From Norana najaformis (Eukaryota; Annelida; Clitellata; Crassiclitellata; Hormogastridae), in assembly GCA_964023275.1 (NCBI GenBank), contig OZ029920.1, positions 4,940,014 to 5,004,013 of the forward strand: a DNA stretch of 64,000 nt, written 5' to 3'. A model generated the notes under the pieces. That model worked only from the letters and a program-made list of their open reading frames with translations, searched no databases and was not told where the DNA came from. Numbering within the stretch: position 1 is the first letter of the stretch; every line of letters begins with the position of its first letter. The position numbers and the translations under genes were made by a program. Positions 3,906 to 63,935 of the stretch are shown here, piece after piece.

Positions 3906-4375
3906 TAGTCGGCTAGACACTGTAGCGCTTTTTAAGTAAGTAATTAAGAAATTAACTCCACTGCCTTTAATTGGGTTGTGTCAGTCCGAAGCTTTTTGAT
4001 AAAGGAAGAAAGCGGTGCTAATCCTCTTCGTTATTTCAAAGCCTCGTTCGGTCGAAACTACTACAGTGTATACTACGCAGTATTAGCAGGCCTATGCTGG
4101 AGGAGAACTAAAGATTAGCAATATTAGGCCCTATCCATAGTTTAATGACAGCGTATGGCCGGCTACAGCCGTTAAAGTCGACATCTTATCTCACACACGT
4201 TTAACAGAGGATTTGTTTCACAGATCAGACGAAAATGAGAACTATATAACGATGGAAAGAAGTAAAATAAAGGTGTCTAAACATAGCCTAATAATTTATT
4301 ATAAATACTATATTGAGCTCTGTTTATACATTTCTAAATCGCTTTCTTCGACACCTAATTTCGTTTAGGACGTTG
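3906..4375. other. Intergenic stretch, diverged core repeat only
   Basis: No gene seen. A weak copy of the composite core repeat lies at about 4140-4290 (GGCCGGCTACAGCCGTTAAAG and TAAAATAAAGGTGTCTAA). Confidence 0.5.
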
Positions 4376-5537: not shown

Positions 5538-5639
5538 TATAAACATTTCTATAATTAATTAATTAATTAATTAATTAATCTAATTCAATCCGCTGTCTTC
5601 CCATTTCTCTCCGCTTAAACACAACCCACCCTAACAGCT

Positions 5640-5860
5640 CCTCTTCCCCTTCTCTCTCAGGTCTTCGGCAACCGGACTTGATTCTTGACAAGGTCGTTGG
5701 ACAGCCCACTGACTTGACGCAGCGCTCGAGAATAAGCTGGTGCCCTGCGCTTAGCTTTCAAGTATCGCTTTATAAATTTAAAGTTTACTTTCTCGTTCTA
5801 GCTGGAATTAATACTTCAAGTTTAAGATTACGATTACTCAAGTTTATATTCTTATTTTCA
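5640..5860 (+). mobile_element. LINE 3'-end fragment, second subfamily
   Basis: Contains GACGCAGCGCTCGAGAATAA and GGTGCCCTGCGCTTAGCTTT, shared with the copies at about 29240-29430 (forward) and 10835-11090 (reverse). It abuts the TRIM-Kelch start and gives a spurious in-frame extension upstream of the real ATG. Confidence 0.7.
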
Positions 5861-5884
5861 GATTTAAATTTAAAATCCGCAGAA

Positions 5885-17000: not shown

Positions 17001-17559
17001 TCGTATAATGAATCTATTGGCCACTGCTTGTCCTGCTGCCTTAAACTTTAAAAGCGCACAACGTGGCGTTGGCTGCAGTGAAGGCTGTAAATAAGGTCGA
17101 TCAATACGTTCAAGGCTGTCACCATGGCTTTCACAACCACTGATGATGAACACGCTTTGTTATCGATCCTTACTAATGCTGTTCAATAGAAGTGTCCTGA
17201 AGCCAGTCGACTGCTAGATTTACGTGAAAATACCTGGATAGCTTTATACGTATTTTTCGTTTTTTATATTCAGTACAAACACCTGACAGTGAATTGAACG
17301 ACGTCAATAAACGGTTTTGCCACTTGACTTGCAATATTCAACGTCAATGCGGACGTTACACGTAGGCCTACTGGGCACACTCTCTAAGTCATCCAGTCGC
17401 CTGAACGAAACTATTCGCCAGTTTGGATAGAAATCAGGCTTCAAGTAACACGATTATCAATGTCGACATGGATCAAGAATTCAAGAACTGGAGAACCCAA
17501 GATCTGATAGCCATTTTAGAGATATTACATGTTGGCAATTAATTATTACCAATGTCAAC

Positions 17560-20500: not shown

Positions 20501-21689
20501 GGCTGAAGGTCCCTCAGTTCCTGCCGTGTTTTGTCAAGAAGTTGACTCCGTTTGCTGTCTTACTAGAAGTTCCGTACTTGATCAAGACGGAAATGAATGA
20601 GTTGACCATCAGCTACAGCGAACTAGGAGTTAATAGTCTGGAGGATCACAGTCCACAGGACGCTGGTTCCATTGACTACTCACAAGTGACGTTAGTTTGG
20701 AGAAAGCGATTTTTTGACAAGTTTGGTCACCGCACGATCAATGCCAGGGAAGCGGCACAAACTGAGCACCCGTATCGATTAAACCCGGAACAACATGGGC
20801 AGAGAATATCAACAAGAGACTGGCAATTGATTCAAGGAGCAATTGTAAGCAAACAGACAGATGAAGGCTTTATAGAGGAAATAAAAGACATCATCGAAAT
20901 AATCGAACGGAAGAATGAAATCTTTATAGCCAATGACACGGGTATTGACTTTGTTACAGATGTTACTTCAGAGATGAAGAAGGGAAAGATGCTAGTAAAT
21001 CATTACGTCAGCTTCTGTCTGACTTTGAAGACTGGATCTATTCTTCCCGTGCAGTTCGTCGGAGAAGTAGGAAATGCTTTACTCCAACCCGAAATCAAGA
21101 TGGTCAATCTTACCAGTTGTAAAGACGTCTGCGTAGAACACAGGAAGAACCCTTTAAAATGCTTTCCAAATTCTTCAGTACCAAGGCCAACCAGCCGTCA
21201 TTACCGCGACCCTCTTGAATACATCGAAGCCTGGAGTCCAATTTTGGATTTAGAGTCAGTAACTAGTGCAGTAACTGATGGAGAATCCATTCTATGCAGT
21301 AACGTTCCCGTTAGCTTCAGAAGCTTGAAAAGCTTCAAAATAGACGACAGGAAATGCGGAGAACTGTTTGGCAATTTGATGTTGCCGCTTAGTTTCTGTA
21401 CCCAGCGACAAATCAAAATCTCACGAGATTGCAAAGAGGCGGACTTTATGCACGACTACCTCTGCATAAGAAGTGAAGGAACTGCCGACCACGACCACTT
21501 TAGTGAATTCAAACGCAACGTCTGGACGTGTCACGCAGTTACCGTCAGTGCCTACAACATAAGCGATCAGGACGTTGTAACTCTACGCTTCAAAGTGACG
21601 AGCTACTCAGCTGAACCTCCAGGCAAACTCTGCGACGGGAAGGAACATCCTTGCGCGGTGGAACTGCTCTACCGCACATTGCCGAACAA
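17560..21689 (+). CDS. Exon 1 of HELZ2-like gene: CCCH finger and RNB domain
   Basis: A single 4.1-kb exon encoding residues 1-1376 plus two bases. The RNB signature reads IDPGLCRCVDDAF at 588-600, then VWVHISDVSHLVEKGEDID, MLPNTLATDVLSLKEGKRRL and, near the domain end, FTSPIRRYMDIVAHR. In RNase II-type enzymes four aspartates bind the metal (pattern D-x5-D-x-D-D). Here the second is Cys595, while D589, D597 and D598 remain. The exon ends at AA|GTAAGC; the in-frame stop just beyond (21691-21693) is intronic in this model. The region after RNB has the ELLYRTLPNK end expected before the helicase. Confidence 0.88.
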
Positions 21690-24600
21690 GTAAGCGACAT
21701 AGTCAAAGAATTAGACCAACTCAAGAAATAATTTTAGATAGATAGGTTTATCATAACTGGCAGTCTAGGTCACCTTGATTCAGATTCATCTACGAAATTC
21801 AACGAAGTAGGACTACATTTCGATAGCAGGCGCCGAAGTTAATGTCCTTCAACAGTAGAATTGTTAACTGGTCCAATTATATGCGATGTTATTATATAAT
21901 TGTTGACAGAGAGCCACGCATTAAATATCACCATCATCATCATCATCATCATCAATAACAACAGCAACAACAACAACAATGACAACATCATCATAGACTT
22001 CCTCCTCAGCATCAACAACAACAACATAATCATGACCATGATCATTATGATCATTTTCATGAACTACAACAACAATATAATCATCAACATCAACAACAAC
22101 ATCATAATCATTGTCATCTTCATTATAACCATTATCAACAATAACATTATAATCATCATCATCATCATATTTTTCTGCACATGTGATCATTAATCGTTTC
22201 CATCCACATGTCTCTGTCTTCCTTTGCCGGAGTAAAGTTGTGGACGTTTGTTTGGCTCCATGGAAGTTATCTTCTATGTCGTCGAGCTATTCTCTGCAAG
22301 ATCCCTCTCTTCTTGTAACGACACTACCGGAAGGCATCACAGATATGCAAGATCTCTTACAATTTCATATTTTTAAAAACCAATAAATTAATTAAGACAT
22401 AACATGTCTGTTACAGACGCATGATTAAAGCTGTTAACAATCTACCAAAGTCGTCTGAAATTTGTCAGAGGATTGCCCTTTGTTCATCTCTTTCAACTAT
22501 CAGTGAGCTACTTTAAAAATTTATTGCAATTATTTTTATTATTTTTAGTCTTATAGTATTTGAATTCGCTATTTTAATAATAATGCTAGCGCTGTGACGC
22601 CAGTGGGTTTATTTGGGCGCTCGGGTGAAGCTCGAGAGGGCGAATCAGTCTCAATTTATCTGCAACTCGACGCTCGAACATAGAGACTTCAAATTTACAC
22701 GAGATATCATTTTGATCTCGACTTAAATCGCGAGAGATCCGAATTTTGTAAAACTCGTCAACGTTCTTAATGTAATCGGACAGTGCAAACCATCGCCCAC
22801 CTTCAAGTGACAAGCTCACAAACTAGATATGTCACACGAAATGCCTGTACATACACACACCATTGGCCGTGACAAGGGCACTGCATCGGCACTCATGAAC
22901 TTCACAGATGTTGACTCAAAGCCTAAGGTCTACTGCGACTCTCACGGCCCCATCGTAGCAAAAACCTAATCGCTTTTGTGTGGTTCCCAAACCTTTCATG
23001 ATCGTATATTTCAGTGACTTTTGGCATTCCTGTCAATTACGGAATTGTCCCAATATGACTGCCTTTGGACAAAAGCACTGCGCGGGTGGAAACTGCACAA
23101 TCAGCACACTAGCAATCCAGGAAAGCTTCGGCCTGTGAGTCTTGGGGTACCTGAAGATTGTTAAGCATGAAGGATTGAGGACTCCGGGTGCCTGCAGCCG
23201 AAGCCAAAAAGGCTTGCGAGGTCACCCGGCGAATGCCCAAACCTCCAGCCTTGGCTGGAAGGGAGTATTGGAGGAAATGATTGTTAGAGAGGGACAAATT
23301 GAGCATTGAGTCCAGCCCATGGCGCAGCAGAGAATCGTATTTCTTAAGTGTGGGTGGTCCACACAAGGAAACATCGTAAATTGTGCAGTAGTTTCTGGTG
23401 ACTGTTTCTTAGGAAAATGAGTGCATCATGTCTATCAACAGATAATAATTATTGTTATTTTCATAATCAACAATCGTAATAAAAATAAGTATGATAAATG
23501 AGAGCATGATAATACAAATAAATAAGTAGTAATAATAAATACTATTAATAATAAATAAGTATTATCATGCTCTCGTTGATCTCTTGACAGTGACTTAAAA
23601 CTGGTTGAGAGAATGAAGCGTTATATTCTGGTTGCGTTTTGTTGTGCAGGAGTTGGCCTGTCGAAGAGCGTTGGAACCTCATACGACATTGTTGTTCCTG
23701 AGGACAACAGACCTCGACATGAAGACAACCAAAGTCAGAGGAATGCAATTGGAAAAGCACTCACAGAACCATTCACTTTAATTCAAGGTCCTCCAGGTAA
23801 CTCCCTATCTTCCCCTTATTTCACTTTTAGTATCAACTCGAAACACCATCCACCATAGCCGTTTGCCTGCCTGCCTGCCTGACTATTCGATCTTGAACTG
23901 GAATCGAATCCCACCTGCCTGTCGATTTACTTTGACTGAGCACCTGTGAATGAGCTGATTTCCGAGACTTAGTTTTCTTTGGGCGTTGTAGAAATCTCGA
24001 GCTTACGATTACGACCTGGAGCTAATGCCCGAGAAATTACTTTACAATAAAGTCAAGCGTTTTCAATCTGGCTAGAAATAAGGCTGGACTAGCGTTTAAC
24101 TTAAGTTGCAAGAAATCGTCATCGTAATCACGAGTACAAGAAAACATATCAGAGCTGCTCGCGACCTAACAATACAAGCACACGATCAAAAATACTTGCA
24201 TTCAACCTCTGACGAAATGGAAGCACAGAAAGAACGTGCACTTCACAAGTTCTATGGTAGCCTGTTCTAGAATGAGGGGCCGTCCACGGCGAAGTTATGG
24301 CCTGGTTAGCAACACGCGTCGTCATGTCGCCTCTGAGCTTGAGGATGACAAGATAAGTGTACGGACCGTGCAAGCCCGAGATCAGTATCTATGAATCAGG
24401 CACTATTAAAAGATCCTGATCTCGGGCTTGCACGGTCCGTACACTTGTCTTGCCTTGTCTTGTCTTGTCTTTAGCTATATTCAATCCGAAGTTGGGCCGG
24501 ACCATGAACCGTCCGTCTCCAGATGTTTCTATCTCCTGTTGTCCTCAGTAATTGACTCATGGATAATCCTCTCCCAGATCTTATGTTCTCGATTCAGGTT

Positions 24601-25631
24601 GCTCGTGGTCTTCCACGTGCTGGCTATCCAGATGTTTTACCCGCATTATTTCTTTCTCCAAACAGTCTTCATTTTTCCTCATAATATGACCAAAGTATGT
24701 CACCTTTCTTACCTTGATGTTACTTAACAGTTGACGTTCCATGCCGGTTTGTTCCAGCACTCATTCGTTGGTTTTCTGTGCCATCCAAGAAACCCTCAGT
24801 ATCTGCTTCAGTTCCTTCATTTCAAATCCATTTATCCTCATTTCGTCCGTACACGGGGACTTTAAGTGACGTGACGCCCATTAAAACGTGCAGCGGTGGT
24901 GTAATATCTCACCCGATTAATTCAAAGAAAACTGAGCAGGGTCAAGGCCAAACTGACGCTATAGAAAACCGTTTACATTTATTTTACATTTAACCTGTCA
25001 CTTTCTGAAAGTATTAAATGGAGGAGAAACAAAATAACCCTACGTTGCATCGGTCTTTACTTATAAAAGTTTTGATTCAGCTTGAAGCCCTTCACGTTTG
25101 AGGATGGATTTTTGGAACGCGGAGAACTTCGGCTGCAGAACTTTGCAGAACGGCTTGCATAAATGACCTTATGTTTTTGCTTTTGCCAGGGACTGGAAAG
25201 ACGGTTGTAGGCGTGAAGATTGCCTACTGGTTCAGTCGGACCAATTTAGGGGACGGATTGCGGAAACAAGTCCTGTATTGCGGACCATCCAACAGTTCCG
25301 TTGACGTCGTAGCTAGTAAGACTGACTATATGGACGTTTTTGATAGTGATCATGTGTTGTATGCATAAATATATCTGTATGGATGACTGGATGGATGTAC
25401 TGTACGTATGTGCATTGTATGTGCACGTGTATGCATGTGTGTGTGTATGTATGTATGTGTGTATGTATGTGTGTGTATGTATGTATGTGTATGTATGTAT
25501 GTATGTATGTATGTATGTATGTATGTATGTATGAATGCATGTATGTATTATTTGTTGCCTCTTATAGATGACTGGATGGATGTACGTATGTGCATTGCAT
25601 GTGCATGTGTATGCATGTGTATGTATGTATG

Positions 25632-25664
<33 letters not shown>

Positions 25665-28600
25665 GCATTTGTGTATGTATGTATGTGTATATGTTTGTAT
25701 GTATAATTTGTTGCCTCTGCTAGATCCATTACCCTCGCTTATTCATTCTACAGAACAGTTCCAGAAGCTGCTTGGAAGCAAATGTCCAAAAGTTGTAAGA
25801 ATTTACAGCAAGAGGAGAGAAACTATGGACTATCCAATTCCGCGAAACCAGAGTCCGAACGACAGAAGGGATACTCTCGAAGACGACCCAGATATTCGCA
25901 AAATATCTCTACATCATATCCTTCGAGATTATGAGAACCCGGATTATAGACAAAGAATTGCAGACAACGGAAGAGATTACCGACAAGATATTGTAGAATT
26001 CGACAGAATATTTGCCAAGAGTCAGCCTGAGATGATATCCGACGAAGAGGTTGGAGCATATAAGAAATTGGTTCATGAAGCGAGCGTCGATGAGCTGAAA
26101 CATTACGACATCGTTTTGTCCACGTGCTCAGCAAGTGCATGTCAACGCCTCGTACAGGGTTGTAACATCGTTCAACTCATTGTGGACGAATGTGCCATGT
26201 GCACTGAACCGGAAAGTCTGATTCCTCTGGTGGCGTTCGATAAAGTGGAACGTGTCGTTCTGATTGGAGACCACAAGCAACTGCAGCCCATAATCAGAAA
26301 CCGTGAAGCGAAGAATCTTGGTCTGAAAGTCTCACTCTTCGAACGCTACTCCGCGAAGGCTCACATGCTTGACGTACAATACCGTATGGTATGATTTCCA
26401 TTTTTTGTGGCGTTCATTTCGATTAAAATTCCTCCTTTAAAGGCTTTGCTCTAATGAATTGGTTACTGTTCGATTGTGGTCTTGTGCTGTGAGATTTGGA
26501 GTGACTGCGAATAGTTTATCTGAAGAGGCGCTTCACAAATTCATGATTACAATTACAATTACAGTAGCCTAAATAAAGGCCATAATGACTTATGCAAAAC
26601 GGAGCATATTGGTGATAATATGTTAATGGACTGTCCCCACTCAGCTCAAGTTAAATCTCTTCCTAACAAACTATCGTTGTGCATCGTTAAATCTCTTAGG
26701 CACCCTTGTTCACAGCCCTTTTGAAGGTTCAGTAAAGGCGGTATATAAATGTCTAGATAATACACTGATAAATTGCATTCTCCGATTCCTATTAGAATTT
26801 GGCACAAATTGCGTTCAGATTTAAAGCGATAGCTGAGCAGAGTGTAATGCTTTGAGGTCTATAGCTATAACAGTTTTGCTCAACTGGATTAAGCAAATCA
26901 TCATTATTTTAATGCAGATGCTGGTCTAAAGTAAATGGACACGTTTTATATAGCGGCCGTTTGGCTTCGACCCTGCTCATTTTTCAACGAATTTATGTCT
27001 AGAGTAGATTAATGACAGGTGCAGTTGTGCGTGAAATCGCTGAGAAAAGTTCAGCGGAAACTGCGAAAAAAACATTATGAATATTATAATTCCGAGCTGT
27101 AAGAACATCTTAATAACAACATTTATTATTACTGTTTAACCCGCGGCATATATGATTCATCAGGAATGTAAAAATTCTCTGGATAATGTAGTCATTCTGT
27201 TCTGCAGCATACAAGTATCTGTGAATTTCCTTCCAAACAATTTTATGAGGGCAAGCTGAAAACAGGAAACGGTAGTTGGTTCTGGGAAGACCGCAACATG
27301 CTGAAGATTTGGCCCAATCCAAATTACCCGATGATGTTTTGCCACGTGGAAGGCGTCGAAAAGTCAGAAGCTGTGACGACACCGGAAGGAAATGAAAATA
27401 GCAAGAGCAATAAACAAGAACGCGATCACGTGGTGAGAAAACGATGTTAAAAGGTGGTACATGTAAATAATATTTACATATGAATGCAGTATTATTGTTG
27501 TCAGTATGTAATCGTAATAGTAAACTCGAGATTTCTACAGAGCTCAAAGAAAGCGAAGTCGCGGGAACCAGCTTATACACAAGCGCTGAGTCAAAACAAA
27601 ATCGATAGGCAGGTAAGGTCAGATTCGGTTCCAGGTGAAGATCCAAGGGTCAGGCAGGCAGGTAGTCAGACGGCTACGGTAGATGTTATTTAGAGTTGGA
27701 GCGGTAGATAGGAGGAGAAGGAGGAATCAGGATAGGATTTCAGGAAGAGAAGTGTTTTCGGTTTCGAATGACAGAATTGTAACAGCTATGCAAGTCTGCT
27801 TTCAACAAATTCAAAACTCATGTGAAATAAATATAAATAACTTTTCTCGCACAAACATCGGCGTGCTAGTTCCGCAAACTGTCCATTCTGAGGAAAATTC
27901 CCTGTTGCTCCCCGTTAGCTACTATATGTGCTGAATCAGGCGGACCACGCACAAACGCACCTTAGACTATTACTATATAGCTGTTAAGTTCATCTAATCA
28001 AAATAACTGAGCTATTAGAGTTTAACAGTCGTCAATAAACAATTCAAATAACTGCTATAGCGCCGTTATCATGACACCTAAGCAAAGGACTGCTGGAACA
28101 TACATGTGCTATCTGTCATAATGGACTGACCTTCTGGCTATTGACTTGATTGCGGTTTTGGTTTTGGTGCGCCATCGGTTGATGTCTTGTGCATTAGACC
28201 CCGGCGCGATAGAAGTTACTAGTTGCAATTACAACTGCAGCAAAACATTATATTCAAAGAACCACTTACTTTTTTCTTTATTATAATTGATCATTACTAA
28301 GCAAAAATAAATTATTAATAAGCCTGTATATGGATATGATATTCAGGCCTACGCTTATTTAGGGCTGGGCATCTATGTTTACATTCTTCTTCAGTATTCT
28401 GCCCTTAGGCAGGTCCAAGAATCCAACGACGCCACTCTTCTCTGTTCTGTGCCCTTTCTTAAACTTCTTTGTAGCCCTGTCTTCATTCTTTATCCATCAT
28501 CCAGTCAAACAGCATGTTCCTTGGTCTTTCTGGAACCTTCTTTCCTTTAATTCTTCCTTCAATCACTGCCCTTAGGAGAGAATTTCCACGCAGTATGTGA

Positions 28601-34470: not shown

Positions 34471-34486
34471 CGCAAATCTAGTTAAT

Positions 34487-35065
34487 ATGTCATACATATT
34501 TGAAGCAGAAACTATTGAACAGCCGATGAAAAGTTCCGCTGGCCAGCAGTCAAGGAAAAGTGAGCACCTAAAAATACCTTACTCTAAATTCTTTATTTAT
34601 GCAGTTGAGATATTATTTATTTGAAACCTTTTTCTTCAATGAAACTTTCAACAGTCAGTCGAAGCAAAAGAAATTTTCCAGTATACTTAATTTATAGCTG
34701 AGATTGCTGGGGGCACAAAGGACCAGGAATCTAGAAAATGGGCGGAAATTTGAACTCTAAACTTCTGTGTTAGCAGTCCATCACGCTAACCAATAGACTA
34801 CGACGCACACGGCTGAATAATTGATTAATTACTGAAAGACATACAGATATTTCAGGCTGCTTTGCAAAGGCTGGATAATTCCATTCAAAATGAAAAGAGC
34901 GGGTCATCGGTCAGTTGCACCATTGATTTGTTAATACACTAAAACAAGTCTTGTCAGCGCAACGAGGGTTGTTTACTTAAACCCACACCCATATGGGTAT
35001 ACTTAGGCATGTACTACCCTATCTTATTCAATCCATCGAGCTGCTAAAGGGCTTTATTGTAGCGA

Positions 35066-37950: not shown

Positions 37951-38065
37951 CACAGAGGAGAAACTAGATTGACTAACGCAGTTTCTGCTCAGCCGTTGAT
38001 CAGTTGATAAGTCGATACGAGCTGACTTGCATATCGTTGCGTATGTTTTGCGAATTCCAGTTAAT

Positions 38066-41000
38066 ATGTCATACAAGTTGAAACCAGGAACTGTTGAACA
38101 GGCGATGAAGGGTTCCGCTGGCCAGCAGTCAAGGGAAAGTGAGCAAAGAAAAATACCATACTCGAATTTCTTTATTTATGCTGTTAAGATGTTCTTTATT
38201 TGAATCCTTTTCTTGAATTAACTTTCAATAGTCAGTCGAAGCAGAAAATTTTCAGTTTACTTAATTCATTGGTGAGATTGCCGGGGACACAAAGGACCAG
38301 AAATCTAGAAAAATCGTTCATCCTGGGCAGGAATTTGAACTCCAAACTTCTATGTTAACAGTCTATCACGCTAGCAAATAGTCTACGACTCACACGGTTG
38401 AATAATTATTTAATAACTGAAAGACATACAGATATTTCAGGCTGCTTTGCAAAGGCTGGGTGATGCCATTTAAGCTTATAACGCACAAAATGAATAATGC
38501 AGGTCATAGGTCAGTCGCGCCATTGATTTGTTATTAAACTGAAGCAGTTGGTGTTAGCAACGAGTCTTATTCATTTAAATCCGCTCGCATGTGGGTATAA
38601 GAAGGCTTCAATTGCCTTATCCAATAAATTGCGCTTCTAAAGGAGTTTAGTGTAGCACATCTGTATAAATACCAGCGGCAGATATGGAGCAGAGATATTT
38701 ACTTGATGCAAGGCACTTCTGTAATTAATTAATTAATTTATTTATTTATTTAAAGCATTTGTAACGCGCGCAATGTAAGTACAACTGCATCTGAGGAATG
38801 ATTTATGATTGTTATTTATAATACATAATTTATGCAAATTTTTAAAAATAAATCAGACGCGCGATGTTTAGCGTTTTGGGAAATTGTCGAGCAGTTGTAT
38901 TCCTGGCTGATAAACTGCAAGCCGACTAGGCATGATGAAATCGGTTCTGTGTTGTTCCTCATAATTTATCCAATTGTAGTTTTATTTTTCTACATTGCTT
39001 TGTATATCAAATAATCTGTCGATTCATCCAGAAACTTACGCAACTTACAAACGGGAGATTTCCGAAGAATCCGACCAACCAGAGACTAAAAGTGAGCAAA
39101 ACATCTACTTTTAATTCTCAATATACTGTAAGACTTTCAGGAAATGGCTGTTTGTAACTACGAGAATCCATAGACAACTTTGAACCAAAGAATGACAAAC
39201 ACAATGCATAGGATTCTATAAGTTGAACGCAACGAACGAAATGTACATTCTAACAGCTTCTTGTTTTGCTCTGTCCTTTAACATTTATTTATTATCACAT
39301 ACTTTGCCTTCTCGATGTAGGATAATCATAATCATAATCGTAATTGTAAGTTCGAGATTTCTACAGCGCCCAGCGAAAGCTAAGTCGCGGGAACCATCTT
39401 ATTCACAGGCACTCAGTGAAAACAAAAAATATATACGCAGGAAGGGTTCGGTTAAAGGTCAAGATCCAAGAGTCAAGCAGGGAGACAGACTGACGGCTAT
39501 GGTGGACGGTGTTTGGAATTGAACCAGAAATTGAGATAATGGGAAGAGGAAGAATATGGTAGATAAGGTAACATAAGAAGAAGTAAGATTAAATCAGGCC
39601 AAATGTATGGTAGTGGTATGGAACTGCTAAGTGATAGACGACATGGAGTGGTAAGGTAAGATCAATGAAATGAGATCGAGTGAAAAAGTTTTGTTAAGGT
39701 GAGGTAGGGTTAGGTTCGGTAAGGCATGATATGTCATCGTATGGTCTGGTCTGGTATGCTTATGAAAAGTGGGTGAATCAAGTGGTCAATGGTGTACAGT
39801 TCAATAACTTAAGATAAGTAAGATAAAGAAATTACGATTACATGCACACGTTTTCTATGGCTACCGTATGACCTCGACCCTGCTCATATTTCAGTGAATT
39901 TATCGGGTGATGCCCCTCACCACCGCTGCCTGGTTGTATTGGCGCCAGGCCATTGAGGGTCCCCGTGCACGAACCGAGCAAGTCCGAAATTTAAAACTCT
40001 GAAATATAACCACGATCGGTTATTAAACCGACATCCTTACGCACAGGGTTGACGTATGCTTTAGCAATGTAGCTAACCAGACCTATTTGTTCTGAAATCA
40101 GGCCTGCCAACTGTCGATTGTGCTAATCCTGGACGCCCGCATAGTCACTCGATATGCCAGTACCAATTTATGCACATCACTGTATGAAAGTAAGCCTAAA
40201 GTAGGATCTAACGTAAATAGTCGTTAAATTTCGAAATCATGATTTATGTTTTGACATCCAGGGCCGATGATACCATGCGACGTCGTTAAAAATCGCTAAT
40301 TCACTGGAATATTGTCTGACACATCACTTGATACCATACGATGACATATCATGCTTTACCGAACCTAACCCTACCTCACCTTAACAAAAATTAAGTAAGG
40401 TGTGGTCGATGTCAACTGCCTTGGCAGTCACTAGATAACGTTAAACACTCGAATTAACAGCGTTAGGCAAAGTTTAGACACTTTTAAAGCTCTTTACCCG
40501 AATTTAAATATTCCTAATTGTTAAACCGCTAGTATACAACTCTGCCACTGCCTTTAGTCGGGCAGTGTCAGTCCAAAGCATGGATAAAGGAGGAGGACGG
40601 CGTCAACGGCTTTTGATGTCATAAGATGTCGTTAAACAATGGAGCTACTACTAACCGCTAGTATCCTGTTCCTTTAAAAGTTTTATGTGAGGCACGGTTG
40701 ACGATTAAGAAACCGTTAAACCTCGATTTAATGAATAGTATCAAGCAATGTTTAGGCACCTTTAAATCCCTTTCCCAGATTTTATATATTCCTCATTGTT
40801 GTTAAATCGCTAGAATATTGTACTTTTATTTTTAGGTGGAATATGATTGATATGGCAGCCATTAGAATTCGTTAATCACTGGATTAAATTAATAGCTGTT
40901 TAGACATCTTTAAATCCTCTTTCAGAATTTGTAGGCTATATTATTCATGGTTGGTAAATCGGTTTAAGAACTTTAAAGAGTCCAAGGGCTACAGTAGCCA

Positions 41001-44270: not shown

Positions 44271-46295
44271 ATACTACTACTACTACTGCTAACACCTTCA
44301 TTAGTCCATGACAATTTCCATTACCCCTAACCGCATTACATTATATATTGAGCATTTCTTTAGGCCCGAAGAAAAAGAATAAATCAAGGACTATAAATAA
44401 ATGAGGCACAAACAGTTAATACATATCGCTCGTATCTAGATAACTATTATTATCTAGATAATAATTAAATTCTTGATCAACTAATACACACATTTTGATC
44501 TTTAATTGACAGTCTACGTGGAGTGGAAATAACTCATTGCAACTTTGGAAAAACTCAAGTGGAGGTCTGGTACGTAGCAAAAGAGACCGATGGTGAAAAC
44601 ATCGAGGAGGATCTGCGTAAGGAAATCGAACCACATGTCAACCCGTTCACACTGAAACTTGTAAAGAAAGCTGGCCTCCCGACCTTCAAGTACACTTCAC
44701 CAGGCCAGAGTACTAGTTTAAGGAGGGCAGACAGCTGCATTGGCGCCTACGTCTCCTTAAAAGGTATCCTACTTCACAAAGCAGCCGTAATGTAGGTCTT
44801 TCTTGGCTTTATCTTTAGATTGTTTTTTATTTTATAATTTCTTAATCGTTAGGATCTAGGGCAATGCTAGAAGCTAATCCCTGTTTACGATACCTCATCA
44901 TACCGGAAGCAAATACTGTTTGAATATACTGGGTTATAATATCAAATATGCTATCTCAACTCAGCACATCTGTAATTTCTCCTGATTGAGTCAGCGCTAA
45001 ACAAATTCGAATAATATCAACATTATCTTAGGATTTTTTATTTAGTGCGCACTAAATCAATAAAAATAATTGCACGTCTCCATGGGCTTCCGTATCATCT
45101 TCTCTAATATCAGAAGCAACGACTCTTATGAAATTACAAGGAATTATTGTACTTGTAATAAGAATATTGAATGGCGCCGCTTCATTCATAAATGAGACAC
45201 ATCGGTCGGCTATGGCCATGCGCCAGTCTTCACTGCTGCTTCCAACTGATTGCGATTCATATCACAGATATCCTTTGAAATAGGTCATTCTTCGTGAAGT
45301 CTTCATGGGAGTCAAAGTACCTCTCGGCTGAGGATGTATCCTATTTTCTTTGTCTCGATGTCAGGTAAAAAAGTCCTTCAAAAATCATCGGGCTGCAACC
45401 CCAAGACTTCCGTTCAAACCCGAACCTCGTGAGCTGCTCCAGTGGGGCACGGTAGCCGATTTATCAGAGCGCTTGGCTTGTAACGCGGAGTGTACAGATT
45501 AGAGCCTCCCGTAGTAAGGTTGCTGTGTAGGGACTTAGAGCAAATCCTTCACTCACAATTGTTTAGCGCTATCGATTTACACCCAATTATATAGTGGCGC
45601 TTAATAAATGCAGAATAATAATGTATGGTTTTCTAGATAAGAACAGCGGCGAGTCCAAGATGCACGCTGTTGTGGCCGGACATGACAAGAGACCCGGAGA
45701 TATTATTTACTTGAATCAGAATCCAAACCAGAGAATCGGCGAAGTGATGGTGGTAAAAGAAGGTCAAAACGATATTACTACTGTTAGTGGTGCGTGGTCA
45801 AACGACCGTTCTGGCAGCTACGATGTTGGGCTGGTCTTGACGGATGAACAGCAACGAGGCAGACATGAAAATTCGGTGACCACGAATCATTTCGGGGGAG
45901 TCAACTTAGCCAGAACTACAGCTATCCTTTTTCCTGAGGATATGAATGATCATCAGAAAGTAATGCTCTTTAACAACAGCAACACAGAAGGCACAGTACG
46001 CTACAACAACTACAACAGTCAAATTCCGCAAAAGTTCGGAATGATAGCAATAACGCAGCAGCCAGACGGGATACAACAAGCAGTCCACGGAGAGAGTGAG
46101 AGCGGAATACTCATCGCTGCCTTGGAACCTTACCCAGAGTGTGGGGAAAACCTTGTGAAGGCGGTTGGGATGTTGGTTGGAGTGGAAGAATTTGAAGCAC
46201 CTGAAAGCATATCGCTGGCGGTGCCAATTGGCAGAAATCTCCAAGAACTGCAAGAAGATGAATATTGTGCAAATAAAGAAATAGAATTTGTGTAA
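38066..46295 (+). CDS. Predicted intracellular trypsin-like serine protease, paralogue 1
   Basis: Six-exon model: 38066-38138, 39032-39091, 41567-41617, 42526-42598, 44513-44763 and 45637-46295; 1167 nt, 388 residues, GT-AG throughout with consistent phases. Exons 2 and 3 are small and symmetric (phase 1-1). Exon 5 encodes a pre-protease module (RGVEITHCNFGKTQVEVWYV ... GAYVSLK). Exon 6 encodes a chymotrypsin-fold-like domain: His185 in VVAGHDKRPGD, Asp232 in SYDVGLVL and Ser325 in SESGILIA. Spacings of 47 and 93 are close to trypsin's 45 and 93. The residue before the Glu of the Ser motif is Ser, not Gly, so oxyanion geometry and activity are uncertain. There is no signal peptide or membrane segment, so a cytosolic site is likely. 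It is paralogous to 54744-59566. The exon-6 start is set by TTTTCTAG and phase; the upstream open frame is intronic. Confidence 0.78.
38280..38400 (-). repeat. tRNA-headed SINE, reverse (copy in module b)
   Basis: Orthologous in position to 34680-34815: AAGGACCAGAAATCTAGAAA then TTGAACTCCAAACTTCT and the head at 38355-38400. Confidence 0.7.
39320..39540 (-). mobile_element. L2-like LINE 3' end, reverse
   Basis: ATAATCATAATCATAATCGT, CTAAGTCGCGGGAACCATCT and GTCAAGATCCAAGAGTCAAG. It lies just past the end of the module a/b similarity. Confidence 0.8.
39541..40239. other. Intronic sequence, nothing recognised
   Basis: Between exons 2 and 3 of the protease-like gene. A GC-richer patch at 39900-40000 may be an old SINE, which I cannot confirm. 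Confidence 0.4.
40240..41010 (-). repeat. Composite core-repeat array, reverse
   Basis: At least five reverse copies of the core or its variant: about 40255-40290, 40410-40445, 40545-40640 (best), 40690-40720 and 40975-41010. They are spaced by TTTAAATCCCTTTCCCAGAT-like and TAAATCGCTAGAAT phrases. Confidence 0.7.
41130..41525 (+). mobile_element. Two adjoining LINE 3' ends
   Basis: A decayed second-subfamily copy (41130-41270) followed by an L2-like copy (41275-41525) with CACCATCCACCGTAGCCATC, TTTTGACTGAGCGCCTATGA and GGGATTACGATTACTGTTAC. It ends about 40 bp before exon 3. Confidence 0.7.
43030..43395 (+). repeat. Three head-to-tail copies of the composite core repeat
   Basis: Near-identical units starting at about 43050, 43182 and 43287, each running from TTTAACGAC to AAGGCAGTGGCGGAG. 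This is the youngest-looking cluster of the family here, in the intron before the pre-protease exon. Confidence 0.85.
44010..44292 (+). repeat. Core-repeat fragment followed by (TAC)n microsatellite
   Basis: A core copy at 44060-44108 leads into ~175 bp of TACTACTAC interrupted by TGC and CACTACTTCTACCAC. TAGTAGTAGT also precedes other core copies (44047, 50207), suggesting the repeat's tail is a TAG/TAC run. Confidence 0.8.
45420..45540 (+). repeat. tRNA-headed SINE (Thr-like), forward
   Basis: CACGGTAGCCGATTTATCAG and AGCGCTTGGCTTGTAACGCG match the Thr-like head at 16500-16590. In the last intron of the protease-like gene. Confidence 0.6.
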
Positions 46296-52310: not shown

Positions 52311-53149
52311 GGTCATACATTCTGGAAATGTTTACTACAGATAAGAATCCAAATATGTAAATCGACTGAGTGGTGCCAGTGCACAGTGACGACAGCTGAT
52401 TACATGCAAACAGCTCCTGTCCATAGTCAAACATTATAAGGCTTTCTACTAATGCCACTGTGTTTGCCAAAACTTGCATGTAGAATAGGAAATTTTCTTG
52501 TTCTGCATCTGGTCGTGATTGCGTTTGTCAAAGAGATTACGTAATCAAACGGCGGTTTAAGAGGGTCGTCTGTCCATTTGCGCTTTCGACAGAATTCTTC
52601 ACAAGCGAAACGTAGAATAACTGCTTATTACTCAAAAGCTTTAACAGCTTCAGTCTTGTCATTCTTCTGTGGTTGCTTAGTTGTCACGTCCTCGCTTTTC
52701 CTCTAGTCTTGCAGGAACATTAAGGGTTCGCTCAGTTCGAAGCGATATTTTAATAAAACTAACGAAAATAAAGTTAGCATTACGATCTAGAAAGTTCTCC
52801 TCAGTTGGATTCACTGATGTGGATTGTCTGATCTCTCCTTAATCTGCTCCGATCTTAATCTCTCTAGAATTCCCTCTTGCTAGTGTAGTTGCTTAACGAC
52901 GCTGTGTCATAACAAAGGTGATCAGCATCGCCCTCCTCTTTATCCAGGCTTCGAACTGCATGGAACCATCACAACATGACAGTTAGAATCCTATTTTATC
53001 TCGCCTTTATGTTGACCGTAGATCTTGGCTGTGACAGTAGTAGGCTATTTTGCACTGTTGGCGTGTAAAAATTACTGTACTTCAATTTCTGCCGACGTCA
53101 CTGTCTTGGATAGTTTCCGCATTCCAAACTATTTTGTTCAGGCACCTAC

Positions 53150-53670
53150 TGAAAGCTATGGATAAAATCTGGAAAAGCAAAGCCATAAAGCTGGAGACAA
53201 AACTGAGCGTTCTGAAAACATGTGTTTTCAGTAGCATGCTATATGGATGTGAGGCTTGGGTAGTAACGAAAGATGTTGAAAGAAGGATACTGGCCCTTGA
53301 GAGAAAATGCTATAGGAAGATTATGAAAATAGGATGGACACAAAAAGTAAGCAATGCAGAACTATACAGACAGATACATCTCAAAGAGAACTTGATGCAG
53401 AAGGTACTTCAGAGGAAGCTGGGATTATTTGGTCGCATATGGAGAATGAGCAACGTTTGGAAGATCAAGACATTAGTGTTCGGAATGATGTATGGACCAA
53501 ACAAGAGAGGACGACCCCATAAAGAATGAATAGACGACATAATCGAATGGTGTGGAACATCAGTCCAGGAGCTGAGCCACGCCTCACTGGAAAGACAACA
53601 GTGGAAGAACATAGTGAAAATGGCATCGGACACCTACGGGCGTTGTACCCAAGGTTTATCATGATGATGA
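53150..53670 (+). mobile_element. LINE ORF2 C-terminal remnant (RTE-like)
   Basis: The frame 53050-53529 reads KAMDKIWKSKAIKLETKLSV, LYGCEAWVVTKDVERRILAL and RKLGLFGRIWRM. After a stop at 53527-53529 the same frame continues LERQQWKNIVKMASD. This is the C-terminal portion of an endonuclease/reverse-transcriptase ORF with one stop, 5' truncated. Confidence 0.8.
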
Positions 53671-54743: not shown

Positions 54744-57700
54744 ATGTCGAACATTTCGGAAGCAGAAACAACTGGGCAACGAATCACTGGTTACTGTCAA
54801 GCTAACCAGCATGCAAAGAAAAGTGAGCTCTTGAAACACTCTACTCTAATTTCTTAAATTATCTTGTTTCGATATTCATTATCTTAATCATTTTTCTTAA
54901 TTGGACTTTTACTGGTCTGTTTTAAGCATAGAGACATTTTGGTCAGTTAGTGGTAACGTAACTTGTGCATGGTCGTAATCGTAAGCTCCAGATTTCTACA
55001 GCGCCCAACGAAACTAAGTCGCAAGGCACTCAGTCAAAACAATAATCGATAGGCAGGAAGAGTTATGTTCCAGGTCAAGATCCAAGAATCTGGCAAGCAT
55101 TCAGACGGCTATGGTGGAAGGTGTTTGTTATTGAACCGGAAAGCGAGATAAGGAGAATCGGAAGATAGTATGGTCACTAGAAATCATATACTAGACGACT
55201 ACGTTCATCGGGCCCATTTAGGCCCAAGTTGTGCCACTGGTAGTAGCTGGTGGCCCGCCTATGAGCCCACTGTGCGTCCAGCAAACGTGCCTGCAAGAAA
55301 TTACTGTTAACTGTCATAAATAGTAAGAATATTTGTACGTATGTTATGCAAATGATCATTTAAAGTTTTTTTTCTACTAGTAATAATAATAATAATATCA
55401 CCCCTACTACATCTTATAGTGCAATTAGTACTACAGCCTCTGTGTCTGTATACTTCAGGTCTACCATTTACACCTTTAGTTAGCAATCGTCAATCGGGGA
55501 AAGTAAAGTATCCCATATCCCACAAGAGAGACGTAGTGTAGGCGCTAGTTTCCTGTTATTGGCCCTTGAAACGGCAGTGGACGAATCCCAAATAAAATTC
55601 ATTGTCACAGGGTCAGCGCAACTCAGGACTTGCCCTTTACTTCCCAGCTTACGCCGGTGCCAAATTATGCTGCTTGGTGACAGAGGCACGGTATGCTCAA
55701 ACAACTTGCCCAGGGTAAGTGAGTTGAACTCCCAACCACACGATCATGACCAAACGCTTTACCGATCGACCATCGTGCCGCAAACAAGCGGTGAAAGGCA
55801 TACTTAAAAACGATTTGATGTCTTTCGTTTGTTGAATATTGGTGGTAGCTATTGCCAGGCTGTACAGCTTACTGGTATGAATATAATTATGGAAGGCTGC
55901 TTCGGCGAAATTTCCGTGGTGACGTGTATTCTTGACTCACGAAAGAATTTGAAATGCGTACTATTATCGTGAATTTCAGTCGTCAGTCAGAAGATGTTGC
56001 GTTGAGGGGCTTAATAAAGTAGGCCTACTATGGCTAAATGCGGCCCTATACTACTGACATTACAATTGCATTCATCTTCATCAGAAACACCTGTTCAAGT
56101 AGATCCACATACAACATTCCAAGCCGTCAATCGGACTGTAAAATTCCAGTTGACTGGTGATGAAGTTGAGTGAGTAGACCAACAATTTCTACTACCAACG
56201 AATGATAGTTGGGCATGAGTAATGAGCAAACTGACAAGAACGACTGTTATAACGTCTGCAAATTATTTTACGCCATATACCCTTTGCAAACAGGTCACTC
56301 TGAAGAAACTGCGCGTTTAGCCATAGCTGAACAGGAACGATAAAGTTAAGAGATAACCAGGACTTCCTCATTTCATGATCACAGTAATCGATCTATTAAG
56401 CAACAAGTTTTTAGGTTTTATCTGTAGAGCGCTAGTCTATAAATTAGAGGACGGTTTGGAAAACATTGACGACTTAAGCTCAGTAAGAACAGAAATGGAT
56501 GAAACTTACATCATATATTCCAGTGACAATAAAGACGTCAAAGATAAAGATAATTGTAAAGGTATTGCTCCAATTACTTCAGCAAATGTATTACCTACAG
56601 TCAAAACTTGTTGGAAACTGTGGACGAGATATGCCTTTGTTTGCTATTGCAACTAAATTTACTCGGTTTGTGTAAGCCTGTAGTTATTTACTTGTGGTGT
56701 TAACGCTGTAGAACAGCGAAAAACGAAATCGCACTCCACTGGACAGAGCCATGCAGCCAAGATCTTTGAGGCCAGTAAAACTTGAAGATGAACTTCCGGG
56801 ATAAGAATTTCAAAACAGATGGGGTTTCAGTCCTGAGTTAAACGACATCACAGAACCAGCAATCATAAACAGGTAGCGGATTCCAGAACCTTGGACTGGC
56901 CACTGAGATAGATCAGAAGCCCAGTTCTGCTTTGGTTTCTGGGCATAATAACCGTGGGAGCTTCCAATGGGTGAGTGCAGTACATATGTCCCTGAGGTTT
57001 AAGCAAAGACATAAGATAAGTTGCCTGGTCAATATGTATTATTTAACAAAATATGAGATAGGTTTTACACCGGATTCTTTTTCTATAAGAAACCAGTGTA
57101 ATTATTGCTGTATGTGACCGATGCGTTCCATGTGCTGGAATTTGTGTTTGTTCGTATACAATCAATTAATGCAGTTATAATAATAATTTAATTTTTCTAA
57201 AGGTTTTAACCATACAAAGAAAAGTCTTGACACAACTAAGAATGACTGCGAACATAACGGACAGACTGAGGATGTCTTTACCCCTGGTCAGACAATCGCC
57301 GTTTTCAGTCAGTTGCGAACTTTTACGTAAGTAACAACGAGTTTTCTAACTGCGCAGCGTCATTGTGTATAAAGACAAAGTAAATAATTATACAGTGAAA
57401 GTATATAGAGCGTTTAGAGAGCCTTTAAGAAGTTTCTAAAGGCGTCATACAAATGTAAATAGCTCGTAAAATTTACCGACTATCAACAATGTCTAACTGC
57501 TTCAAGGTTGAACGAACTTAGCGATTAAACTGCGCTACAATAATATTTAGTCATATATGTTGAAGGACGATGTTTACTACGGTTTCACTTGAAGCGATCA
57601 TCGATTGATGTCTCGTGCATTATAATTACGGCGCCATAGAAGTCATTAGATTTCAGACGAGGTTTATGTAAATGAGGACGTTTTGCATTGAACAGACTCG

Positions 57701-59566
57701 AGGGACTGAAGATTACGAACTGCATCTTCAGAAGCGACCACGTCGAGATTTGTTTCCTCTTAGACGACAGTTGTGTCTACAACAAAGACGAACTGAGTCA
57801 ACAGTTGGCCGGGCATCTGAAGATCAAATCGGAATTGATCAAGCTGACAAAACTTCGAGCCAGACCCGTCTACAAGGACACGTCGTTAAGACCAGGAGAA
57901 GTTGCAAGTATCCAGCCACAAGGCGCCTGCAGGATCGGAGCTTTTGTTGAAGTTGAGGGTAAACCACAAATCATACAACATAGAATCGGCTGAAGTTGGG
58001 GGAATTTCTCAGATATTTTGTAGAAAGACCGCTTTCACAGTTTTCAGCACTAACGAAGTTCTGCATAATGTTGACATTATTGTATGTTGTCATGTCTGAT
58101 ATTGCTCTTTATACACATTAAAAACGGTGTTCATCGACAAATCACAAGTGGTCATTTGGGGCACAAAACATCAAGAGTAAAATATTCATACACCTTTGAG
58201 TCAGATCTTAGCGAAAATCCACCTAGTAGGTCTATTTAAGTATCGCCCACTTGTGTAGAAAAACTATTTTTATCTTTTGTCCAAGTGCGTATTATAATTA
58301 TATGCATGCTTTACAAATGAATGCGTTGCTTATTGTCTAAGTGGTCATTACAATTTAGATTTATGGTCCAATATCATCTTAGCCAGCTTCACTGGTTTCC
58401 AGTTGAATGGCACGTTAAACTCAAAATTTCTTGCCTGATCTTGAAGCTCAGAACACCAATCTTCCATCTATTGCTAACTCCACATTGCTCCGCTGAATTG
58501 TTGCATTCTGCTGAGCCTAGATTTAGGATAACTGTGAGATAATGTGGTTGCAGTTGCTGTGACCCTCGCATTTGAAATCGTCTACCACAAAAGGCCCGAC
58601 TTTCCAACTCAAAAGCTACATTTAAGTCACTTGTAAAGTACCCACTATGATATTCTGGCCTTTACTTAACTCTGTCTTAACATTCATCCGAGCCTCTGTT
58701 TCGGATTTACTGACTAGACAAGTGTAATAAGTGTTCCATATAAATCCAAAATAAATAAATATATACTGTATACTATAAATTGTAAAGTACACTTAGTTGC
58801 AGCCTATACGGTCAAGTCCTTTTAAATTAAATATAACTATAATTAAAATCATCTCAATGATGATGGTATCGAATGCGAAGGCACTTGAGGTTAAGTAAAC
58901 AGAGGTGGATTCTCGCAAAGATCTAACTCAAGTCTATAATGCGGTTTAATACCAGGGAAAGGGAATCACGCACTCATGAGTGGTCATGGGAAAACTCCGG
59001 GCGATGTGCTTCGCTACCCGAACGGTGATGGACTCGGAGTGGTCAATGTCTCCTTACATCCACCACTTCAACCTTCCGCCAACGACAACTGGTGTAACTA
59101 CAACGATGTGGCTTTGGCTCGCCTTGAAAATCAAGATGGCTACGTTACTGAAGTACTCGACGATATCCAAGGTCCACTGAGACTGATGGAGCAACCGATA
59201 TATGCTACGAATAACATGAGGGTAAGATGTTTCACAAGGGATGAAAGAAGAGGTAAAGTTGACAGCACAGCCTACATTATTTGTGATTTCACCTACAATA
59301 TACAGTTTAGACTGATATCCGTGAACAGCGAAGAAGGGGGACCCATTCACCAAGAGGGCGAAAGTGGAATTCTAATTGCGACCGAGAATCCTGTCGATGG
59401 AAGAGTCGAAGCCGCGGGAATTCTGGTTCGCCTGGAGGAGATGCGTGAAGATAATGAGAAGCAGACAGTGAGAATTACGAGCCTCGCTGTTCCACTTCCC
59501 TCAAATTTTGCTGCCCTTCGTGACCATCCCTATTGCAATGGCGCTGCAGTCAAATTTCTCACCTGA
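54744..59566 (+). CDS. Predicted intracellular trypsin-like serine protease, paralogue 2
   Basis: Six-exon model: 54744-54822, 56085-56169, 56428-56561, 57203-57326, 57696-57958 and 58956-59566; 1296 nt, 431 residues, every junction GT-AG and phase-consistent. Exon 1 (MSNISEAETT) is paralogous to a1/b1. Exons 2-4 form an N-terminal region of unknown fold. Exon 5 is the pre-protease module (LEGLKITNCIF ... GACRIGAFVEVE). Exon 6 is the chymotrypsin-like domain: His239 in ALMSGHGKTPGD, Asp279 in YNDVALARL and Ser365 in EGESGILIA, spacings 40 and 86. The Gly-Glu-Ser-Gly motif parallels the GDSG of active enzymes, so activity is plausible. There is no signal peptide and no Cys pairs typical of secreted S1 proteases. 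I infer a cytosolic enzyme or sensor; substrate unknown. A LINE and a SINE lie in intron 1. Confidence 0.8.
54970..55150 (-). mobile_element. L2-like LINE tail, reverse, in intron
   Basis: TCGTAATCGTAAGCTCCAGA, AACTAAGTCGCAAGGCACTC and GGTCAAGATCCAAGAATCTG. Confidence 0.75.
55485..55795 (-). repeat. Full-length tRNA-headed SINE, reverse
   Basis: Runs from a 3' body (AAAGTAAAGTATCCCATATC, GGACGAATCCCAAATAAAAT) to a head that on the minus strand reads GGCACGATGGTCGATCGGTA and GGGAGTTCAACTCAC. It is the most complete of four relatives (33590, 35370, 51745), all reverse and all near the protease-like genes. Confidence 0.75.
58360..58740 (+). mobile_element. L2/CR1-like LINE C-terminal remnant in intron
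   Basis: YHLSQLHWFPVEWHVKLKIS and LLLTPHCSAELLHSAEPRFR in one frame, then a stop and decayed sequence. It matches the LHWLP-type ORF2 end. Last intron of paralogue 2. Confidence 0.65.
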
Positions 59567-61314: not shown

Positions 61315-63935
61315 ACTGGCCAACAGAAAAAAATTTTTTTTCTTGTTGCCTTCGGTTTTAGACCTGTTCTTGGGGTAATTTTGGGCGCTGATTCAGAAAA
61401 TGTCATTGGATTGAGTGCATCAGGTCTAGTTTCTGAGATATCGTCGATTTTGTAAAGAAAACCCAGTCCACTCTTTAAACGATGTCTTTGGCAAAACTAA
61501 AATGTCATAATAAGCTTTATCTATGGCTAATTATAATTCTTGCTGATTCATATAATGCCTACATCCTTATAATGTAAAATCAGCATATCTTGCCGCGTGC
61601 TGAGATATTGCTGATTCAACGAAATAACTATTCCGTAGCCTACAGCTTACTCAGCACTAAATTCATGGCCTCATTTAGAATTTATTTGTGCTTATACAGC
61701 GTTTCATGGTTTCGAACTATGTAAATAGATTATGCTGAAGTCAGCATTTATAGCCTATATAAACCGCCTCCTGAAAGCTAGAGGAGCCGCAGTCGTCTTA
61801 GGGCATATTAAGAGTTGGTCGCAAGAACAATCTGTGAATGTGAGCATTAAATAACTACATGTTCTTACTATTTTTTAGGTTAGTCATTTAATTCCTCAGA
61901 TGCGAACATCCTTAAGGTTATGGCTACTTCCAGACGGAGCTGCATTAACCATCCAGACATATTCTGCTACATTTGTGGGGAATACACACTAAAAGCAAAC
62001 AGGAAACCGATTTCTGAGTTTGTAAAAAGAGCATATGTAGGTTATTTTGGTGTCAAACTTGGAGATCAAGATAAGCAATGGGCTCCTCATACAGTATGCA
62101 AAACTTGTATTGAACAATTGCGCCACTGGACAATTGGAAAGAGAAGCTGCCTGAAATTTGGTGTACCGATGGTTTGGAGGGAACAGATAAACCACTTCGA
62201 CGACTGTTACTTTTGTATGGTTAATATCATAGGCATCAATCGAAATAATCGTCACAAGTTGTCTTACCCTGATATACCTTCAGCCAGGAGACCTGTTCCG
62301 CATTCGGATATTGTACCAGTTCCACCTTTTCGCGAACTACCTCAGCTCTCAGACGATGAGACTTGCATGTCCAATATCGGACAAGATGACGAAAGTGAAG
62401 AAAGTGGGGGCAGTGACAGTGATTTCCAATCAACTTCACACAGTGAACGTTTTGACCAAAAAGAGTTGAGTGATCTGATCAGGGACTTAAATCTTTCCAA
62501 AGAGTCCTCTGAATTGCTTGCGTCCAGACTAAAGGAAAAGAATGCACTTCAGCCTGGAACGAAAATTACAATTTATAGAAACAGAGAAAAGGATTTGCTG
62601 CCATTCTTTACCGAAGACAACAACCTAGTATTCTGTAATGACATCAGCAACTTATTGAAGAAAATTGGTCTGTCGGATTACAGCCCAGATGAGTGGCGTC
62701 TTTTTATCGACAGTTCAAAACGTAGTCAGAAATGTGTGCTTTTAAATAACGGCAACAAATTTGGTTCTATTCCAATCGGTCACTCCACCAGGATGAAAGA
62801 AGAGTACAATGCCATCTCTTTAGTACTGGAAAAGATAAAATACAAAGAACATCAATGGGTAATTTGTGTAGACTTGAAGATGGTAAATTTCCTCCTTGGT
62901 CAACAAAGTGGCTACACAAAGTATCCCTGCTTTCTGTGTCTTTGGGACAGTAGAGCCAAGCATGAACATTGGACAAGAAAAGATTGGCCTTCGAGGAAAG
63001 ACATGGTGGTTGGAGCTCAAAATGTAATCAAGGAATCTTTGGTGGCACGAGATAGGATCATACTGCCACCACTACATATAAAGCTAGGCCTGATGAAACA
63101 ATTTGTCAGGGCTTTGAATAAAGAAGGTTCATGCTTCGAATACATAGTACACAAGTTACCAGGAATTACAATGGAAAAATTGAAGGCTGGAATCTTCGAT
63201 GGTCCACAGATCAGGCAACTTATGAATGAGCCACTTTTCATACCATCAATGAATGAAATCGAATCTTGTGCCTGGTCTTCCTTTGTTCTTGTAACTAAAA
63301 ATTTTCTTGGCAACAAGAAGGCAGACAATTATGCACAACTAGTAGAGGATATGCTTCTTCATTTCAACAAGCTTGGCTGCAACATGAGCATTAAAGTCCA
63401 TTATCTCCACAGTCACTTAGATCGCTTTCCAGAGAATCTTGGTGACTTCAGCGAAGAGCAAGGTGAAAGATTTCACCAAGACATCAAAACAATGGAAAAT
63501 CGATATCAAGGAAGATGGGATGCACACATGATGGCAGACTATTGCTGGAATATTATGCGCGATTGTTCCGGCAGATGCCACACTCGGAAATCGTACAAAA
63601 GGAGCTTCTTCGGTGTCGAATGACTTGAAATTTTTATAACAAACTTGTTCTGTTTGGTATCGTATAAGTACAGTTTCAGGTACTACCATTTTCTTTTAAG
63701 TATTTGTATTATTATGTTTATTTAGTGTATCACATATAAATTGAGCACTACATAATTATAGCTATAGCCTTATGTTTTATGGGCGAGCAGAGGCAAGGAC
63801 TGGTATATGGCATAAGTTCTATATCTCGAAAATAGACCTGCTGGGAGAAAACTGGTGCCTTTTCTGGAATCAGCAGGTCAAATATACCCATAAACAGTTC
63901 TAACATTTGAGGCAACAAATTATGTGTTGGCTAGT
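61315..63935 (+). mobile_element. Putative autonomous DNA transposon with long terminal inverted repeats
   Basis: About 2.6 kb with inverted ends of 115-127 bp (61315-61441 and 63821-63935), starting ACTGGCCAACA and ending TGTTGGCTAGT. The arms share TTGTTGCCT, TTAGACCTGTT/TTAGAACTGTT, GCTGATTCAGAAAA/GCTGATTCCAGAAAA and CAGGTCTA...GAGATAT at roughly 70 percent by eye. Flanks AATTACAATTATAAC (left) and AATTACAATTAAAC (right) look like a 14-15-bp target duplication, although the target is LINE-tail repeat. A single intact ORF lies inside. Family not identified. Confidence 0.75.
61920..63623 (+). CDS. Putative transposase of unnamed family
   Basis: 567 codons, uninterrupted, centred in the element with inverted ends. 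The N-terminus is a Cys/His-rich finger: HPDIFCYICGEY, VCKTC about 45 residues later, then CYFCM, probably DNA-binding. An acidic, Ser-rich linker covers residues ~145-180. The C-terminal half has conserved-looking blocks LFIDSSKRSQKCVLLNNG, VICVDLKMVNFLLGQQSG with CFLCLWD, PPLHIKLGLMKQFV and SEEQGERFHQDI. I infer an RNase H-like DDE/D core with candidates D264, D318 and E512, E513 or E516. I recall similar unannotated multicopy proteins in arthropod and cnidarian genomes but cannot give a superfamily name. Alternatively it is a domesticated gene, but the inverted ends argue for a transposon. Confidence 0.75.
   Translation: MATSRRSCINHPDIFCYICGEYTLKANRKPISEFVKRAYVGYFGVKLGDQDKQWAPHTVCKTCIEQLRHWTIGKRSCLKFGVPMVWREQINHFDDCYFCMVNIIGINRNNRHKLSYPDIPSARRPVPHSDIVPVPPFRELPQLSDDETCMSNIGQDDESEESGGSDSDFQSTSHSERFDQKELSDLIRDLNLSKESSELLASRLKEKNALQPGTKITIYRNREKDLLPFFTEDNNLVFCNDISNLLKKIGLSDYSPDEWRLFIDSSKRSQKCVLLNNGNKFGSIPIGHSTRMKEEYNAISLVLEKIKYKEHQWVICVDLKMVNFLLGQQSGYTKYPCFLCLWDSRAKHEHWTRKDWPSRKDMVVGAQNVIKESLVARDRIILPPLHIKLGLMKQFVRALNKEGSCFEYIVHKLPGITMEKLKAGIFDGPQIRQLMNEPLFIPSMNEIESCAWSSFVLVTKNFLGNKKADNYAQLVEDMLLHFNKLGCNMSIKVHYLHSHLDRFPENLGDFSEEQGERFHQDIKTMENRYQGRWDAHMMADYCWNIMRDCSGRCHTRKSYKRSFFGVE

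Follow-up and report, generated by a model that had tools for sequence, protein, structure and literature searches.

Trypsin-fold proteases of animals are mostly secreted and disulphide-bonded, and few are known inside cells. Does a gene of the annelid Norana najaformis, whose models begin without a secretion leader and end in a His-Asp-Ser layout, encode one of these few? The gene, named A1 here, lies at 54744..59566 of the stretch of 64 000 nucleotides that was analysed (the window; contig OZ029920.1, positions 4,940,014 to 5,004,013); its paralogues are named A2, A3, B, B2 and C2, and all exons given below are on the forward strand. We consider it fairly likely, judging from sequence, that the locus belongs to a small, mainly tandem animal family of intracellular serine peptidases of the PA clan (chymotrypsin fold).

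A sequence-only reading had joined six exons with consistent phases into 431 residues. Phase agreement alone is little proof of such a model, since the splice-site ranges considered allow 360 in-frame six-exon combinations, and 431 residues result from 8 of them. The model was tested by aligning A1 with its nearest paralogue A2 (C8:5.06 Mb): the two loci can be aligned across their introns too (mostly ∼70–89% per 100-base step, with gaps), which makes the alignment usable for this purpose. In this comparison exons 4–6 were kept and exon 2 failed; exon 3 was kept in its 3′ part only, and the six-exon model as written was rejected. Exon 2 (56085..56169, with a putative 3′ end) has lost its acceptor AG in A2 and is shifted in frame by a 1-base indel, with 1 synonymous versus 16 nonsynonymous changes between the two copies; it is probably not coding. 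In A2 the 5′ part of exon 3 is interrupted by two stops and carries an 11-base indel. Its 3′ part, MDETYIIYSSDNKDVKDKDNCK (56493..56561, acceptor approximate), shows a dS of 0.383, a dN of 0.019 and no stop over the 21 codons scored from ∼56493, and was not found in A3. Exon 4 (57203..57326), a linker with the end QTIAVFSQLRTF, is in frame in both A2 (net deletion of 6 bases) and A3, with a dS of 0.333 and a dN of 0.122 for A1 versus A2, and the splice-site dinucleotides of exons 4–6 are retained between these two copies. If exon 2 is skipped and exon 3 is entered at 56493, the gene reads in frame into 381 residues; other in-frame acceptors of exon 3 are found at four upstream sites and at 56484. 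A possible true start at ATG 56495 would yield 354 residues.

The 5′ end is putative. Exon 1 (54744..54822) would contribute 26 hydrophilic codons from an ATG, without a signal peptide and with a GTGAGC donor. It is in frame with A2 and A3, and 2 synonymous and 5 nonsynonymous changes but no stop separate A1 from A2. Segments resembling exon 1 also occur in the window at ∼34.5 and 38.0 kb, upstream of A3, and between the A3-upstream segment and exon 4 of A3; of five similar segments (A1 excluded), two have lost the donor, one of these at A3. At window positions 34477–34593 and 37979–38172 and at ∼4130–4230 of locus L012, exon-1-like sequence occurs together with its upstream region and with no recognised exon 5 or 6 adjoining. 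Segments of this kind are possibly a repeat, and exon 1 may be either the true first exon or a piece of that repeat.

The protease-like motifs that had been noticed in the last exon hold up: SGHG, NDVALA and GESGIL all fall within a single open exon, exon 6 (58956..59566 including the stop codon, coding 58956–59563), the predicted PA-clan serine peptidase domain. The His, Asp and Ser correspond to H189, D229 and S315 of the 381-residue model (H239, D279 and S365 of the earlier one, minus 50). In the alignment of the six intact copies (alignment A5) these three residues and the Gly after Ser are invariant in all six; 30 columns are invariant, the triad residues among them, although identity between the A, B and C2 types is only ∼30%. 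The NDVAL of the family resembles the S1 motif NDIAL; the trypsin used for comparison carries NDIML. A PA-type His-Asp-Ser spacing pattern fits 6/6 copies, compared with 19, 46 and 24 of 100 000 shuffles of A1, C2 and B, respectively; the pattern was drawn up once the motif was known, and for A1–A3 its count starts at a His earlier than the invariant one. Among 36 distinct open frames of at least 150 residues (window and examined loci) the pattern fits nine, all of them family copies, some of them cut. The residue two before Ser varies between G, S and N, and the residue directly before it is Glu, where trypsin has Asp194. At the position of trypsin Asp189 all six copies carry, in alignment A5, a hydrophobic residue followed by an invariant His; on the predicted fold, the hydrophobic residue would suggest a non-basic P1. 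By eye, the segments after Ser (ILIATEN, VEAAGILV and TSLAVPL with NFAALR) match the positions of the last three strands and the C-terminal helix of trypsin.

The absence of a signal peptide, also claimed before, is confirmed for both possible starts: there is no hydrophobic leader within the first 40 residues, where the best 12-residue hydropathy stays below 0, the 5′ end being putative. The usual disulphide cysteines are likewise absent, as alignment A5 has a single invariant cysteine column. Neither of these features of secreted S1 trypsins was thus found in the models examined, the start of which is putative. Given the invariant triad and the lack of both a leader and a conserved disulphide set, exon 6 is best read as a trypsin-fold protease that works within the cell.

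The fold itself is a prediction from these residues. While the invariant triad and the PA-like spacing speak for the trypsin fold that had been proposed, all fold and profile tests of exon 6 were negative, with few sequences and low power. AlphaFold2 returned no fold (mean pLDDT 31.4) for exon 6, with two rows only and the upstream strand missing, and hhalign of alignment A5 (Neff 1.97) against bovine trypsin gave a probability of 0.2% with the triad not aligned. A PDB profile search yielded 0 matches, again with few sequences and low power. No Pfam family, PF13365 and PF00089 included, was matched at E≤10 by any of the five exon-6 copies scanned (all but B2), and no PADLOC family by any of three copies. 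The NCBIfam and PDB searches gave nothing better than E 0.19; single matches at E 0.19–1.8 were set aside as weak. Pattern searches gave 6 matches in viral contigs and 68 in contigs of prokaryote genomes, and a relative was confirmed in neither set, nor among phages with the C2 copy as sole query. In the open-licence literature, represented mostly by titles and abstract openings, no account of the family was recognised.

The unrecognised module ahead of the protease domain, another element of the sequence-only reading, is exon 5 (57696..57958), preceded by exon 4. It is kept in frame in the paralogues: a genome search with exon 5 gave four matches at E≤0.001, itself included, and a protein alignment joins it to exon 5 of copy B. 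Residues 1–55 are predicted, with modest confidence, to form a beta-beta-alpha-beta arrangement without a specific fold match; the matches that were returned (ribosomal protein S3 region, MNT antitoxin, acyl-CoA ligase and others) likely reflect a widespread arrangement and were given no weight. The last strand of the exon (IGAFVEVEG) is, by eye, probably part of the protease barrel. A match of the C2 exon-5 copy to RexA (PF15969) was below the cut-off (E 0.18) and was set aside.

That the gene has a paralogue had been noted as well, and this copy, B, lies within the window at 44514–46295: a protein alignment places its exon 5 at 44514..44765; its exon 6, with GESESGIL and a stop, is at 45636..46295 (46292 without the stop). 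With A1 exon 6 as query we found five genomic places at E≤0.001, itself included, and with C2 exon 6 seven places at E≤10; the counts are lower bounds, so that there are at least seven exon-6 places. These are A1, A2, A3, B, B2 (C8:5.082 Mb), C2 (C2:0.271 Mb) and a broken B-type copy (C2:50.82 Mb), the last split into fragments that lie in different frames. A stretch of ∼100 kb (C8 4.985–5.083 Mb) holds five of the seven, and the family spans two chromosomes. Exon 6 of A2 is 86% and that of A3 78% identical to A1, and when the six intact copies are placed in a tree, A1–A3 fall together and B groups with B2. Between A1 and A2, exons 5 and 6 are 85–98% identical and gap-free in the coding part. 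From our own counts, made without a significance test, dN/dS between the A copies is 0.27–0.39 for exon 5 and 0.34–0.59 for exon 6, and 0.54 for exon 6 of B versus B2; exon 6 is under no more than moderate constraint, as the value of 0.59 for A1 versus A2 indicates. Synonymous divergence between A1 and A2 (0.13 in exon 5, 0.11 in exon 6) is below the difference in the introns, which may point to gene conversion. This is a real, conserved, tandemly duplicated and unclassified gene family.

Several other features of the region were recorded. A HELZ2-like gene occupies window positions 17449–26394; its 1414-codon frame (17449–21693) matches an RNB domain (E 1e-60) and the HELZ2 OB-fold (E 8e-13), and helicase-like frames at ∼23580 and 25387–26394 were recognised by reading only. 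At 5579–8466 a TRIM-like open frame containing RING and B-box domains is followed by a frame that looks kelch-repeat-like by eye. Just upstream of A1, positions 53044–53529 resemble, by eye, the final part of a LINE reverse-transcriptase protein, and a 579-codon frame at 61884–63623, perhaps a transposon gene, has weak matches only (zf-AD, E 0.006, below the cut-off). Elsewhere in the assembly, contig C15 carries broken nuclear copies of mitochondrial COX1 (L025/L026, ∼412 kb and 570 kb); no intact COX1 was found in the search.

Other explanations of the locus have to be weighed against the PA-clan reading. Exon 6 could encode a conserved domain that is intracellular but folds differently, its H/D/S layout being coincidental. 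Structural and profile evidence for the PA fold was not found and the spacing pattern is post hoc, but the triad is invariant among types that are ∼30% identical and the spacing arises in only 19–46 of 100 000 shuffles; we regard a chance layout as unlikely. Much less probable still is that the models overlook a signal-peptide exon and the gene encodes an ordinary secreted S1 protease, as the putative 5′ end would permit: there is one invariant Cys, Glu stands in place of Asp before Ser, PF00089 is unmatched, and a plausible hydrophilic start is available from exon 1 or from ATG 56495. A1 might also be a decaying pseudogene, which would be compatible with the PA-clan reading. The copy at C2:50.82 Mb is indeed broken over several frames, and neither exon 2 nor the whole of exon 3 has been preserved; however, exons 5 and 6 have open frames and a dN/dS <1 for every pair compared, and the exon 4–6 splice dinucleotides are kept between A1 and A2, so that we give decay of A1 little credence.

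The closest known counterparts are FAM111A and FAM111B, described in one study (PMC9798293) as vertebrate intracellular trypsin-like proteases in which N-terminal modules precede a C-terminal trypsin-like domain with a His-Asp-Ser triad. According to the same study, these proteins combine Pfam Trypsin_2 with usually two UBL domains, PF13365 (Trypsin_2) is present in every species of the tree, and FAM111A-like proteins without UBLs are reported from a soft coral and a lancelet. An intracellular protease of this kind is therefore not wholly new; the family itself is unmatched in the domain libraries searched. The N-terminal module followed by a trypsin-like domain and the lack of a visible secretion signal are common to both families, and the UBL-less proteins would ease the comparison. 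A divergent invertebrate member of FAM111, a Trypsin_2-type intracellular protease, would be compatible with the PA-clan reading, but has in our view a small chance: PF13365 is unmatched in all five exon-6 copies scanned, and FAM111A was not returned by the PDB profile search (0 matches, little power). In domain profile the five copies scanned differ from FAM111, and no UBL was shown by the predicted structure or the fold matches of exon 5. In layout the family is FAM111-like by analogy, and FAM111 identity is a candidate only. A second study (PMC10920703), which names the FAM111A structures 8S9K and 8S9L, describes FAM111A as chymotrypsin-like, active as a dimer and possibly inhibited by its N-terminal region; such specificity would fit the hydrophobic pocket residue found here.

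Two further systems are instructive. As in S1 trypsin and chymotrypsin, the triad of the family has the same order and roughly the same spacing, but no signal peptide is seen, a conserved set of disulphides is missing, Glu replaces Asp194 and Pfam gives no match. Bacterial EAD/bDLD-trypsin effectors of conflict systems, according to Kaur et al. 2021 (PMC8195603), combine a trypsin-like peptidase with a small adaptor module, and a fusion of this type is predicted here as well. Their module is a Death-like helical bundle, whereas exon 5 is predicted, at modest confidence, to be beta-beta-alpha-beta, and no prokaryotic, viral, phage (C2 copy) or PADLOC relative of the family was confirmed.

For the PA-clan reading we propose the following arrangement. 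Exon 6 would provide the His-Asp-Ser triad and the greater part of the double barrel. From exon 5 would come a small beta-beta-alpha-beta module at the N-terminal side together with the strand leading into the barrel, and from exons 1, 3 (3′ part) and 4 a short hydrophilic N-terminus. Made without a secretion signal, the protease would be intracellular. By inspection it appears to lack the trypsin zymogen switch, with Glu before Ser and no activation site seen. Since neither this switch nor a secretion signal is seen, its activity would more likely be controlled by the N-terminal module, through binding or self-association, than by cleavage, in analogy to the dimerisation control of FAM111A. 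A role as a sensor or in immunity may be imagined. It is conceivable, though rather unlikely, that the genes form an undescribed cytosolic chymotrypsin-fold family that is independent of FAM111, has its own regulatory module, has expanded in tandem near HELZ2-like and TRIM-like genes and serves as a ligand-gated effector in cell-autonomous immunity. If it is true that invertebrates have a distinct intracellular family of this kind, there would be more protease switches inside cells, and such a family could help to show the origin of FAM111-like proteases.
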